Source: an uncultured Myxococcales bacterium (GTDB lineage: Bacteria; Myxococcota_A; UBA9042). From it: a stretch of DNA of 38,182 nt. The translations under genes were made by a program, and so were the position numbers. The DNA lies in assembly GCA_903955385.1 (NCBI GenBank), contig CAJBNH010000147.1, positions 1-38,182 on the forward strand, written 5' to 3'. Below the pieces are notes generated by a model. That model worked only from the letters and a program-made list of their open reading frames with translations, was not told the DNA's origin and ran no database searches. The first letter of the stretch is position 1. Every line of letters begins with the position of its first letter. This document shows, in pieces, positions 20,946-25,156 of the stretch.

Positions 20946-22883
20946 TCACTTGTACGTGTACTGCACCCAAACGCGAACCGACGATGCGGTCGGGTCGTCG
21001 TAAACGTTCCCCAGCGCGTCGGTGCCGGTGCAGCGATAGCCGTCCCAGTCGTTGTGGTAATCCCAAGCGACGTCTGCACCTTGGCCCACTTGTCCCACGT
21101 AATTGACGTCCGCGTAGGTGAAGCCGCGCGAGGCGCCAGAGGCTACGGTCGGGCTAAGCCAGTGCGTGGGGTTGGGGTTTGATTGGCCCGTGGCCCAGGT
21201 GAAGCTGAGACCAGCACCGTTGACGCTGAACGTGTTGGGACCGGACCCCGCGTCGGAGTCGCCGCACATCCCGATCTTCTGGATGACCAGCTGCTTGCCC
21301 ACCTTCGCTGGCAGGGTACCCAGCGTGACGGGGGGCGTCTGCGAGTTGAGACCGACCGCTGTGAACAAGAGGATCGGATTGGGGTTCGAGCAATCGTTCG
21401 GACAGCCGTCGTCCGCGACCGCGTTGCCGTCGTCGCAGAATTCACCGGTGTCCTTGATGGCGTCCCCACACTTCGGCTTGACGCACGTGGTCCTGCACTT
21501 GTCGGGCTGGTCGGCATTCTGTTGCCCGTTGTCGCACTGCTCCGGCAGCTCGACCAGACCGTTGCCGCAGTCTCGGAACATCACGGCCGTCCACTTGCCC
21601 CGGCAGACGAAGACGTCGTTGGACTTGGTGTTCAGGTAGGTGTAGCCCAAGTGCCCAGCATCACAGGCGAACGGGTCGGCCGCCGACAGTGGCAGCTGCA
21701 CACCGCCCTGCAGGACCATCACCCCCTTGGCCAGCGTCTTGCCGCTGGAGAGGGTCTCGACGGTCAGCGTGAAGGTCTTCAGCGCGCCGTCGTTGCCGTT
21801 GTTCAGGAACTTGCCGTCGACGACCGCAACGCGCCACTTTCCCTTGGGATTTTTGCCGATCCAAGTGCTCAGGTCGCCGCTGGCCGGCTTGGTCGGGCTG
21901 GGATAGCTGGTCTTCAGCACCGTACCGGAACCCGACTTGTCGTGCAGGACGTACTCCGTGTTCGTCGGGTCCCACAACAGAACGCGAACGGTGCTGATGT
22001 CGGAGTTCGCCACCTCGACAGAGGCGGTGATGGTGCGGGCGGTCCCCAAGTCTGGGACGTCAATTTCGCCCCCCGTGCCCACCGGGTTGTTGTCGGGGAT
22101 GCCGATGGGCGTGCCGGGCAACGCAAACACATCCTGAAATACGTTGGACAATTGATTGTTCGACACTTGCGACAGCCCGTCGGAGGGCAGCCCGACAACG
22201 GCGACGCAGTCGTAGGAGCCATCGGCCTTCAACCCCCTCACGACCAGCCCGGTGCCGCAACCGGCCCCCAGCGGTGGTGCCCCGGCGAGGTCACCAAACT
22301 GCCCCGTGGTCGCCACTTTGGCCAGCGACTCGGTCTTGGCGTACACGGCCAGTGAGGGCGTGCCGCTGAGGTCCGCGTAGTCGCCCGTCAGCGCGACGTC
22401 GGCCAGAGACGCCGTGGTGACGTACGCAGCCAGCGCCTGCGCGTCGAGCATCGCGGCCGTCACGCAGCCCGAGCAAGCCAGCGAATCGGCCGACGCTGCC
22501 CGCCACGCGAACGGCACTGCGTCCAACGCCCTGCGCGGTAGCTCGGGGTCCATGCCCACCTGCAGCCCCAGATGCGGCGTCGTCAGCTTGGCAAAGACAA
22601 CAGCGTCCACAGCCTTGATGCTGCCGAGGCGATGCATGAATCGGCCACCGATGAGATCGACGGCGAGCGAGGTCTCCGTCCAGGCCGGCACCGCACTGTT
22701 CGCCGCCTCATAAAGCGCGAACTTCACGACGTACTGGCCATCAGCGACAGGTCCGCCGCCGGTGGACGTCAGCACGCCTTCCACCACGGTCGTCATCGGC
22801 ACCGCACCCGACAAAGCCGGGGCACTCAGCGTCAGGGCCACCATCCAACCCATCAGAACTAGACGCGAGCTTGACTTCCACAT
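20946..22883 (-). CDS. Secreted P-domain surface protein with Cys-rich repeats
   Basis: A 645-residue exported protein. The signal peptide (1-26) ends ALSGA. Residues 30-240 form a repetitive Ala/Gly-rich region (DLSGTPSLAVYAKTESL, GQFGDLAGAPP) of the kind found before tail-fibre-like or collagen-like modules. Residues 255-378 form a proprotein convertase P domain (DVPDLGTARTITASVEV to KTFTLTVETL), a beta-sandwich often on secreted peptidases, yet no peptidase domain is present. Residues 438-500 are two CGNGxxExxEQCDNG/CGDAxxDxxEFCDDGN repeats. The last 145 residues are an unrecognised beta-rich domain. AGGAGG lies about 9 bases before ATG 22883. An outer-surface binding or adhesion role is inferred. 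Confidence 0.83.
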   Translation of the reverse strand: MWKSSSRLVLMGWMVALTLSAPALSGAVPMTTVVEGVLTSTGGGPVADGQYVVKFALYEAANSAVPAWTETSLAVDLIGGRFMHRLGSIKAVDAVVFAKLTTPHLGLQVGMDPELPRRALDAVPFAWRAASADSLACSGCVTAAMLDAQALAAYVTTASLADVALTGDYADLSGTPSLAVYAKTESLAKVATTGQFGDLAGAPPLGAGCGTGLVVRGLKADGSYDCVAVVGLPSDGLSQVSNNQLSNVFQDVFALPGTPIGIPDNNPVGTGGEIDVPDLGTARTITASVEVANSDISTVRVLLWDPTNTEYVLHDKSGSGTVLKTSYPSPTKPASGDLSTWIGKNPKGKWRVAVVDGKFLNNGNDGALKTFTLTVETLSSGKTLAKGVMVLQGGVQLPLSAADPFACDAGHLGYTYLNTKSNDVFVCRGKWTAVMFRDCGNGLVELPEQCDNGQQNADQPDKCRTTCVKPKCGDAIKDTGEFCDDGNAVADDGCPNDCSNPNPILLFTAVGLNSQTPPVTLGTLPAKVGKQLVIQKIGMCGDSDAGSGPNTFSVNGAGLSFTWATGQSNPNPTHWLSPTVASGASRGFTYADVNYVGQVGQGADVAWDYHNDWDGYRCTGTDALGNVYDDPTASSVRVWVQYTYK

Positions 22884-22929
22884 GAGCGGACCCTCCTGGC
22901 GACGAGCCTCACGGCGGACGCATCCGCAT

Positions 22930-22958
22930 CGTGTACCCATGTGCGCGGGCCGCGTCAA
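22930..22958 (-). promoter_or_regulatory. Candidate promoter of the P-domain gene
   Basis: TTGACG (22958-22953), a 17-bp spacer and TACACG (22935-22930) on the minus strand, leaving a leader of about 40 bases before ATG 22883. Confidence 0.4.
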
Positions 22959-23018
22959 CGGCAACGATGTCCCAAGTCACTTCTTGGGCGACGTAGCCGC
23001 ACGCCTGCCGTGGTCGGC

Positions 23019-23180
23019 TCAGGCACCTTCGGCAAACGCCTCGCATGCCGTCTGGATCGCCGTGCGGTTGTCGTATGCCCACTGCACCAGTCCCATCACC
23101 GGCACCAGCAGCGCCTGACCCGGCGGCTTCTGGCACCCCAACAACGACGGCATCCGTGCGGCCACGTGTCGACTTGCCAT
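23019..23180 (-). CDS. Possible 53-residue small protein
   Basis: A short ORF from ATG 23180 to TGA 23019, 37 bases after the cytochrome c gene on the same strand. The C-terminal half (ALLVPVMGLVQWAYDNRT, then AIQTACEAFAEG) looks like a genuine helical protein segment. No ribosome-binding site is visible, so it could instead be a decayed gene end. It would be the third member of the barrel/cytochrome operon. No family recognised. Confidence 0.3.
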   Translation of the reverse strand: MASRHVAARMPSLLGCQKPPGQALLVPVMGLVQWAYDNRTAIQTACEAFAEGA

Positions 23181-23217: not shown

Positions 23218-23544
23218 CTACCGCGTCGCGCCGGTCGGTCGGTTCGCCGTCACCAGATAGCGCAGGACGGCCAGACTCTCTTCCTGACTCAGCCGTGCCT
23301 TGGGGGCCATCTCGCTGACATCGCTGCGCCATTGGTCCGGAGAGCGCCGCGCCGGAGGCACAAGCGCGTGACACCCACCACAGCGCGCCACGTACATCGA
23401 CCGCCCCTGCTCCAGCTGAGCTTGGGTTGCGTCCGGCCACAGCGTCTGGGCCAGCAACGCCGTGTCCGCCGTGACCGCCGGTAGCGCCCCCGTGCAGCCG
23501 GACAGCAGCGAACTCAGCAGGAATAGCGACAGCTTGTGGGTCAT
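23218..23544 (-). CDS. Cytochrome c lipoprotein, single haem
   Basis: A 108-residue lipoprotein (lipobox LLSGC, Cys17) with one haem-c site, CGGCH at Cys55, Cys58 and His59. Met near VSEMAPKARL is the likely sixth haem ligand. It fits a small class I cytochrome anchored to the inner or outer membrane, carrying electrons in the periplasm. It lies 36 bases after the barrel protein gene in the same direction. The pairing of a porin-like barrel with a haem lipoprotein recalls electron-transfer or redox-linked uptake systems, but no further multihaem partner is in the window. The physiological partner is unknown. Confidence 0.88.
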   Translation of the reverse strand: MTHKLSLFLLSSLLSGCTGALPAVTADTALLAQTLWPDATQAQLEQGRSMYVARCGGCHALVPPARRSPDQWRSDVSEMAPKARLSQEESLAVLRYLVTANRPTGATR

Positions 23545-23580: not shown

Positions 23581-24387
23581 CTACAGGTGGAGCCCAAGCA
23601 GAATCCTCGCTTGCACCCGCTCGAACTCGTCCAGGTCAAGTCCACGGCCGCTGGGAACCGCAGCGCCGTAGCCCAGCACCTGCGGCGTCACCGACAGCGC
23701 CACCCACCAGCCTTGCGTGGCATAGGAGACGACGGGACCCGCAAACACCGCCCCGTGTTGCAGCTTCAGGCCGGCGCCGTCGGCAGCGTCCTGCAAGACG
23801 TTGACGCTCATGGCTTCGAGTCCAAGGCTCATGTGCGGGGACAGGAACCAGCCAATGCCCGCCGTGGCCGCGACCTTGTGCTCGCTGTCGCCGCCGCCCA
23901 AGGCGTGCTCGAACTCGTACGCGCCGTTCACGACCATCCCCCAGTCGCCCACTCGCTTGTCGATCAGGACCTTGCCCTCGATCCCAAGCTCACCGGGGGC
24001 CAGCGTGCCCTCCACGTACAGCGCCGAGCCGACCGGATCCGCCACGGGGTCAGAGAGCTTGACCTTCCACTCCGACGACACGCCACCATGCTCCAGCGTC
24101 GCGTCGATCTTGCCGTCCGGGCCGCGCGTGCCCGACGCACTGAAGTTGAGGTACAGGGCCGACATCCACCGATCCGCCACACCGAACTCGAATTCGAGCC
24201 GGTTGTCGATGCGGCTGAAGTAGCGGTCGCGCCCCATGCGAAGGGTTGTCACGGGCTCGATCTCGACCGTGCCCGGGGGCAACACGGCGGTCTCGTGGGA
24301 GCGGGTGAAGTGACGCTCGTTGGCGACGGCCGGCAGGGCGACGGTCAGGCAAAGCAGGGCGGCGACGGCAAGGTAGCAACGGGACAT
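23581..24387 (-). CDS. Outer-membrane beta-barrel protein
   Basis: A 268-residue exported protein with a signal peptide cut near PAVANE. The mature part alternates hydrophobic and polar residues in strand-length blocks with Tyr/Trp/Phe girdles (WMSALYLNFSASG, GMVVNGAYEFEHALGG, GWWVALSVTPQVLGYG) and ends with a strand ARILLGLHL, as outer-membrane barrels do. I recognise no specific family; about 12 strands seem possible. It is the first gene of an operon with the cytochrome c lipoprotein and is preceded by a promoter containing a 17-bp palindrome (24444-24460), so it is likely repressed until an inducer is sensed. Confidence 0.72.
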   Translation of the reverse strand: MSRCYLAVAALLCLTVALPAVANERHFTRSHETAVLPPGTVEIEPVTTLRMGRDRYFSRIDNRLEFEFGVADRWMSALYLNFSASGTRGPDGKIDATLEHGGVSSEWKVKLSDPVADPVGSALYVEGTLAPGELGIEGKVLIDKRVGDWGMVVNGAYEFEHALGGGDSEHKVAATAGIGWFLSPHMSLGLEAMSVNVLQDAADGAGLKLQHGAVFAGPVVSYATQGWWVALSVTPQVLGYGAAVPSGRGLDLDEFERVQARILLGLHL

Positions 24388-24437: not shown

Positions 24438-24466
24438 ATGATAGTGAAAGTCACTTTCACAAACAA
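24438..24466 (-). promoter_or_regulatory. Promoter with embedded palindromic operator
   Basis: On the minus strand TTGTTT (24466-24461) and TATCAT (24443-24438) are separated by exactly 17 bp. The whole spacer (24460-24444) is an inverted repeat: GTGAAAGT and its complement ACTTTCAC around one central base. This is the classical layout for a repressor, TetR-like by size and symmetry, that blocks RNA polymerase. The start site would lie about 43 bases before the barrel gene ATG. No regulator gene is adjacent. Confidence 0.7.
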
Positions 24467-24628: not shown

Positions 24629-25156
24629 ATGGACCGACTTTCCGATCTTGCCCCCCGCTTCACGCTTGCCGAGCTGGTCGACCGCCTGGCTGACGGGAGT
24701 CCCCGTGACCGCGGGCTGGTGCAGCGGGTGTGCGAGTGTCTGGAGCTGTTCGCCGCCTTTCTGGAGCTCGAAGGGACGACCGCCCAGGGCTTGATCGACG
24801 TGGTGGCAACCCTGCAGGTGCGCGATGGCGTCAGCCTGCTGGTCACCGCCCGCCATCCCGACCTGCCGGGCGAGTGGACGTGGAAGGTCAAGGAGGGCGA
24901 CTTTCCTGACGTTTGGCTTCACCGCCACCCAGAGGCTGTGACCGAGGCGTGCTTGTTCTGCGTGCTCGACTTCGACGTGGCGGGGCGCAAGGTGCTGCTG
25001 CCGACGGGCGACCCGGGCACAGCGACGGCGCGTTCGATCGTGGGCGGCGTCGAGCACGTGCGGGTGCGGCTGACCGATGGCAGCGTGTACACATTTGCCA
25101 GCGCCGACGTGGTGTTTCTCGACGAGGCGGGCGATTCTCCCAAGCCCGCTTCGTGA
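24629..25156 (+). CDS. Hypothetical cytoplasmic protein
   Basis: A 175-residue protein of unknown function. The first 60 residues are helical (FTLAELVDRLADGS, VQRVCECLELFAAFLELEG); the rest looks beta-rich and ends HVRVRLTDGSVYTFASADVVFLDE. There is no signal peptide or membrane segment. GGAGGA lies 8 bases before ATG 24629; the longer upstream reading lacks such a site. It is divergent from the barrel operon and convergent with sohB, whose stop is 17 bases away. It has no clear helix-turn-helix, so I do not propose it as the regulator that binds 24444-24460. Confidence 0.7.
   Translation: MDRLSDLAPRFTLAELVDRLADGSPRDRGLVQRVCECLELFAAFLELEGTTAQGLIDVVATLQVRDGVSLLVTARHPDLPGEWTWKVKEGDFPDVWLHRHPEAVTEACLFCVLDFDVAGRKVLLPTGDPGTATARSIVGGVEHVRVRLTDGSVYTFASADVVFLDEAGDSPKPAS

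Follow-up and report, generated by a model that had tools for sequence, protein, structure and literature searches.

The question raised by this locus is which regulator reads a palindrome that sits inside a promoter, and what the genes behind this promoter may do for the cell. The window, that is, the whole stretch of 38,182 nucleotides that was analysed, comes from an uncultured Myxococcales bacterium. Its plus strand reads ATGATA GTGAAAGTCACTTTCAC AAACAA at positions 24438–24466, which corresponds to TTGTTT-GTGAAAGTGACTTTCAC-TATCAT on the minus strand (24466–24438). The hexamers TTGTTT (24461–24466) and TATCAT (24438–24443) are the likely −35 and −10 elements, and a perfect 17-bp palindrome (8-1-8; 24444–24460, minus strand), a putative Fur box by sequence and comparison, fills the spacer between them exactly. 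The ATG of the barrel gene follows 65 nt downstream of the palindrome centre. Letters and coordinates agree exactly with a preliminary description of this DNA, which had read the palindrome as the operator of a dimeric repressor. On its own, the palindrome is unremarkable: the window contains two perfect 8-1-8 palindromes as compared to a mean of 1.3 in base-shuffled windows, and we rejected the significance of the palindrome by itself. The case therefore depends on comparison between loci. The intergenic region that holds the candidate Fur-box promoter is shared with a divergent ORF of 175 residues on the plus strand (24629–25156).

The first gene of the operon (23581–24387, minus strand) codes for a protein of 268 residues with an N-terminal signal-like stretch, which we predict to be an outer-membrane β-barrel. 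The AlphaFold2 model of this protein contains 12 strands (mean pLDDT 94.1), and the nearest folds identified by Foldseek/VIA are FapF (5o65, Z 22.4) and the COG4313 channel (4rl8, Z 22.0). As far as the model goes, this likeness is one of fold only and is uninformative on iron. DUF6662 (PF20367), a Pfam family without assigned function, is matched by 31 of the 46 aligned barrel homologues with E values down to 6e-38. The window barrel itself (E 0.0038, 17.2 bits) does not reach the curated Pfam cut-off of 27, so that its relation to DUF6662 holds at the superfamily level only, as a divergent member. An NCBIfam scan of the 46 barrels returned no useful name. Glutamates 42, 65, 67, 126, 137 and 191 are invariant in all 46 sequences and would suit a cation-binding lumen. 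Some same-family genomes without an orthologue (L128–L133, L135) have a distant barrel paralogue with an RRPF-W-W motif and no Fur-box-like site.

The second gene (23218–23544, minus strand) lies 36 nt past the barrel stop codon and codes for a lipoprotein of 108 residues with a lipobox cysteine (Cys17). With a single CxxCH haem motif on what is predicted to be an exported protein, this product is by sequence a putative monohaem c-type cytochrome. The lipobox C17, the haem motif C55xxC58-H59, Trp72 and Met79 are invariant in 25 aligned members. All matches of the lipoprotein to Pfam cytochrome families fall below cut-off, and its structure model finds no match at E 0.001 and resembles DHC weakly (E 0.6). 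The preliminary description had considered an ORF of 53 residues (23019–23180) as a possible third member of the operon. We rejected this candidate, which is not conserved in the other 75 loci (tblastn, nothing below E 0.3). The window also codes for an exported protein of 672 residues with P_proprotein and DUF4215 domains (20946–22964), which belongs to a repeated secreted family, since L038, and perhaps also L042, from this genome contain similar genes.

For comparison between loci, barrel homologues were collected by a search that found the barrel in 17 of 52 genomes, the source genome among the 52, and by a profile of 17 rows that found it in 73 of the 377 genomes of the phylum. The profile list comprises 90 places, from which we counted the best 64 (E up to 2e-28, window included). 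Another 13 weaker places beyond these 64 yielded 12 that were scored apart and one fragment that was dropped (L127); a further 13 of the 90 were left out. In all ten loci of the same family, the 17-mer is immediately adjoined by TTGNNN on its 5' side and by a TA-rich −10 element on its 3' side, the latter being exactly TATCAT in six loci including our own, so that the operator in a promoter spacer, as first described, is a layout kept throughout the family. The sites of the nine same-family relatives include TGAAAATCATTTTCA, TGAAAGTCACTTTCA and TGAAAATGATATTCA. At offset 0 the same-family hexamers match TTGACA at 4.9/6 and TATAAT at 4.5/6 positions on average, with lower values in neighbouring registers and a weaker −10 match outside the family (2.5/6, 41 loci), but because an extended Fur box likewise has TTGATA and TATCAT as its outer arms, conservation of the promoter hexamers and conservation of the operator are not wholly separable in these numbers.

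The ten same-family sites were combined into a symmetrised matrix, which detects, at a threshold of 15 bits, an upstream site in 41 of 53 held-out barrel homologues (L077 was left out of site scoring, its upstream DNA being too short). The same threshold is exceeded in 0.25% of 5,891 random windows from the same loci and in 4 of 447 windows upstream of other genes. These four include one site before feoA and two windows that share one site before the gene for a di-haem oxidoreductase (DHOR). The 12 held-out loci without a site above 15 bits are L030, L031, L033, L034, L088, L089, L090, L091, L094, L099, L107 and L122; by eye, L030 and L033 contain weaker or classical-type Fur boxes, and some other low scorers show none. 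Two of the 12 weaker barrel places scored apart have a site above threshold. Loss of the palindrome upstream of orthologues had been named beforehand as the observation that would speak against an operator; the comparison instead documents both the box and its conservation.

The identity of the regulator is suggested by a second promoter. In the source genome the feoAB promoter carries the same motif (C24:58716–58739), and a sequence model of the box based on 20 sites matches the window promoter and the feoAB promoter only. The palindrome pattern with up to two mismatches occurs at one place in this genome of 5.3 Mb, and the consensus TGAAAATNATTTTCA, also with up to two mismatches, has the window site as its sole match. 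At this stringency the draft assembly shows no second copy of the operator, before a TetR gene or elsewhere. A degenerate pattern with up to three mismatches occurs at 158 places as compared to 50 for a reversed-pattern control. Inspection of nine of the best of these loci revealed a convincing promoter site at feoAB only, and the rest are mostly intragenic.

The sharing of the box with feo also emerges from comparison. Among the loci from a FeoB search of 22 genomes (G076 and G101, for which no barrel was shown, among them), the ten-site matrix exceeds 15 bits upstream in 15 of the 18 that were scored, and in nine out of ten within the same family. These sites immediately precede the feo operon, some 310–420 nt ahead of the sequence for the FeoB P-loop. 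Scores below 15 bits were obtained for L157, L165 and L175, the last of which codes for another GTPase and not for FeoB. Loci L170, L171, L173, L176 and L177 yielded no P-loop motif and were left unscored, and L178–L184 are also outside this count. As a separate observation, a Fur-box-like site lies upstream of a gene that resembles the manganese exporter MntP (L088:3854–4435).

The source genome, which is 95.6% complete, contains a single gene of the Fur family (PF01475), located 1.4 kb from the feoAB promoter. Compared with solved structures, the encoded protein is nearest to Fur (2e-32), followed by PerR (2e-21) and Zur (1e-18). On this reading the preliminary description was right to propose a dimeric repressor that would act on the barrel promoter from elsewhere. 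Finally, the delta-proteobacterial Fur box has been deduced from feoAB promoters as the 17-bp palindrome WTGAAAATNATTTTCAW, according to the available part of the source (PMC545781). The window site GTGAAAGTGACTTTCAC differs from this consensus at 4 of 16 specified positions, and in the same part of that paper the site upstream of G. sulfurreducens feoB1, cTGAAAgTGATTTTCAc, shows departures of the same kind (PMC545781). Based on the conservation of the box, its sharing with feoAB, the lone Fur-like gene and the match to the published 17-bp box, we take Fur as the regulator. The operator is very probably a 17-bp Fur box of the kind known from delta-proteobacteria, by which Fur would control the barrel–cytochrome operon; Fur binding and repression themselves are what we infer from these sequences.

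Two other kinds of regulator can be weighed against Fur. Perfect palindromes placed within promoter spacers are common among the operators of TetR-family and other one-component repressors, and a protein of this kind, with an unspecified inducer, was the original proposal for this site. We rejected it as extremely improbable, given that the box is common to feoAB, conserved across families and matches the published 17-bp Fur box; since feoAB has this Fur box as well and the genome contains a single Fur-family gene, a TetR-family regulator is not needed. The boxes of Fur-family regulators are alike one another, and the similar site at the presumed MntP-like gene near L088 would also suit Zur, Mur or PerR as the reader of this operator, in which case the module would serve zinc, manganese or the peroxide response. 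We consider this very improbable, because the lone PF01475 protein in a genome of such completeness is Fur-like and because feoAB has the same box in nine of ten same-family genomes.

Having arrived at Fur as the probable regulator, we turn to the question as to what the controlled genes may do. A short haem-c lipoprotein gene stands straight after the barrel gene in 40 of the 64 loci (cytochrome partners were assigned in part with an HMM and in part by eye from CxxCH and a lipobox), in agreement with the barrel and haem-c lipoprotein originally assigned to this operon. An exported FMN-binding protein is present instead of the cytochrome in 11 loci, accompanied by ApbE in nine and by a small membrane protein containing the motif HFHLF in ten, with the limitation that the HMMs for these three proteins were seeded from loci later matched, so that the seed loci match by construction. 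No locus has both carriers, and 13 of the 64 have neither, L098 and L122 of these being near a contig end. The gene pairing and the alternation of carriers are thus apparent from comparison. A site above 15 bits was detected in 11 of 11 FMN loci and in 29 of 39 testable cytochrome loci. In nine of these 11 loci, the FMN gene points away from the barrel gene, which places the site between both genes. The small membrane protein (about 166 residues with HFHLF...H histidines; L097, L100, L101, L104, L111, L112, L115–L117, L119) matches no Pfam family and is possibly a b-type cytochrome without a name.

The neighbourhoods of several loci add to this picture. At L093:2539–6217 (genome G257), feoA, feoB, barrel and cytochrome genes follow each other in one direction, and feoA and the barrel gene are each preceded by a Fur-box-like site. 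The barrel–cytochrome pair is kept in the Bacteroidota MAG contigs L148–L150, which lie outside the 64 and in which a Fur-box-like site of the Myxococcota type was not found; in L149 the pair is followed by a TonB receptor gene. In L099 and L032 a DHOR gene lies within 3 kb of the barrel homologue. The source genome also contains FMN_bind genes on C163 and C20.

To our knowledge, the route of Fe2+ across the outer membrane of Gram-negative bacteria and the place of assimilatory Fe3+ reduction are open questions. The simplest account of this operon is that it serves to acquire iron and includes a redox step at the outer membrane, as suggested by the one-electron carriers, the link to FeoB and the expression expected when iron is scarce. 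A role in iron acquisition is likely, and we favour, with somewhat less assurance, the reading as a whole, namely a Fur-repressed envelope module in which barrel and cytochrome acquire iron. Assimilatory ferric reduction as the mechanism is tentative and falls somewhat short of an even chance. When Fe2+ is plentiful, a Fur dimer would occupy the 17-bp palindrome between the −35 and −10 elements and keep the operon off. When iron is short, Fur would leave and the operon would be expressed along with feoAB. The 12-stranded barrel may then let iron, or a complex of it, pass through the outer membrane. The cytochrome, a monohaem c-type protein with a lipid anchor, may transfer electrons one at a time at the membrane, and its simplest role would be to make iron ferrous or keep it so for FeoB. 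In a subset of the relatives, the FMN-binding protein would replace the cytochrome as carrier, usually together with ApbE and the small His-containing membrane protein.

At its most general, and more tentatively still, the operon may represent an iron-repressed outer-membrane redox-uptake module, previously without a name and widespread in Myxococcota, with the gene pair also in Bacteroidota. A 12-stranded barrel of the DUF6662 type and an interchangeable single-electron carrier, either a monohaem lipoprotein or a flavinylated protein with ApbE, would support assimilatory iron reduction at the outer membrane, upstream of FeoB. The parts of this model that we infer are where and in which direction electrons flow (reduction versus oxidation), from which donor they come and what the substrate is. 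Such a redox-uptake step would bear out the earlier guess that these genes form an inducible system for redox reactions or uptake in the periplasm. The model would give the uncharacterised DUF6662 barrel superfamily a testable role in iron supply that is tied to FeoB, and it describes one barrel type that is paired with a haem carrier in some loci and with a flavin carrier in others. As a Fur-controlled unit of two genes, the module is small enough for direct testing.

Alternatively, the barrel may be a porin under Fur control that admits siderophores or small iron complexes, with the cytochrome or the flavin protein reducing the ferric complex instead of free Fe3+ in order to free the iron. 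The available part of PMC8238504 interprets in this manner PepSY-like flavinylated clusters that are repressed by Fur and linked to TonB receptors, and the TonB receptor gene adjoining the pair in L149 is consistent with this possibility, but such a receptor was seen in only one of the loci looked at. We consider this function rather unlikely. Control by Fur could also go along with no uptake at all. The cytochrome would then take electrons from Fe2+ or excess reductant in iron oxidation or detoxification, as a two-protein counterpart of Cyc2, or, under iron starvation, it would counter peroxide in the periplasm. The Fe2+ oxidase Cyc2 indeed combines a monohaem cytochrome and an outer-membrane barrel (PMC8406198, available part), and genes for DHOR, a putative peroxidase, lie near two barrel homologues. 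Repression by Fur, by which the genes would be on when iron is scarce, suits acquisition better than energy oxidation or detoxification, however, and so does the linkage to feoAB and to a TonB receptor. Cyc2 is moreover one fused chain with 16 strands, as opposed to two chains and 12 strands here. We regard a function without uptake as quite unlikely and prefer iron acquisition by a barrel and an electron carrier.

This iron-acquisition module can be compared with several known systems. The delta-proteobacterial Fur box and regulon described in PMC545781 (Genome Biol 2004) resemble our site in the 17-bp palindrome, the TGAAA arms and the position before feoAB. The Fur targets predicted in the available part of that paper include hypothetical porins and, near feoAB, the cytochrome c gene genX, which is reminiscent of our operon. 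However, these porins from Geobacter and Desulfuromonas are likened to the PF07396 and OprB families, genX is said to be without orthologues, and a pair of barrel and haem-c lipoprotein was not found described in this part of the text. The fused cytochrome-porin Cyc2 resembles our pair in its make-up from a monohaem c cytochrome and an outer-membrane barrel. Our pair consists of separate genes for a 12-stranded barrel and a lipoprotein cytochrome behind a candidate Fur box, in contrast to the single chain with 16 strands that characterises Cyc2 in the available part of PMC8406198. Searches of the literature on the Fur box and regulon, Myxococc-, FeoB, flavinylation and the box consensus found no paper naming the barrel–cytochrome pair in the parts of the sources available, and a literature search found none containing the name DUF6662. 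The available part of PMC8238504 describes how flavin and haem carriers replace one another and interprets Fur-repressed flavinylated systems as iron reductases. Our FMN loci have an FMN-binding protein, ApbE, a small membrane protein with conserved histidines and the interchange of flavin and cytochrome in common with the PepSY-like, P19-associated systems (PMC8238504) and with the DUF4405/FezC cytochromes (PMC10979944). They differ from these systems in that their membrane protein has no Pfam match and in that a barrel partner was not found described in the available parts of either source. The operator adds a further example to a known class of sites, and the barrel with interchangeable carriers is the less ordinary part of this system.
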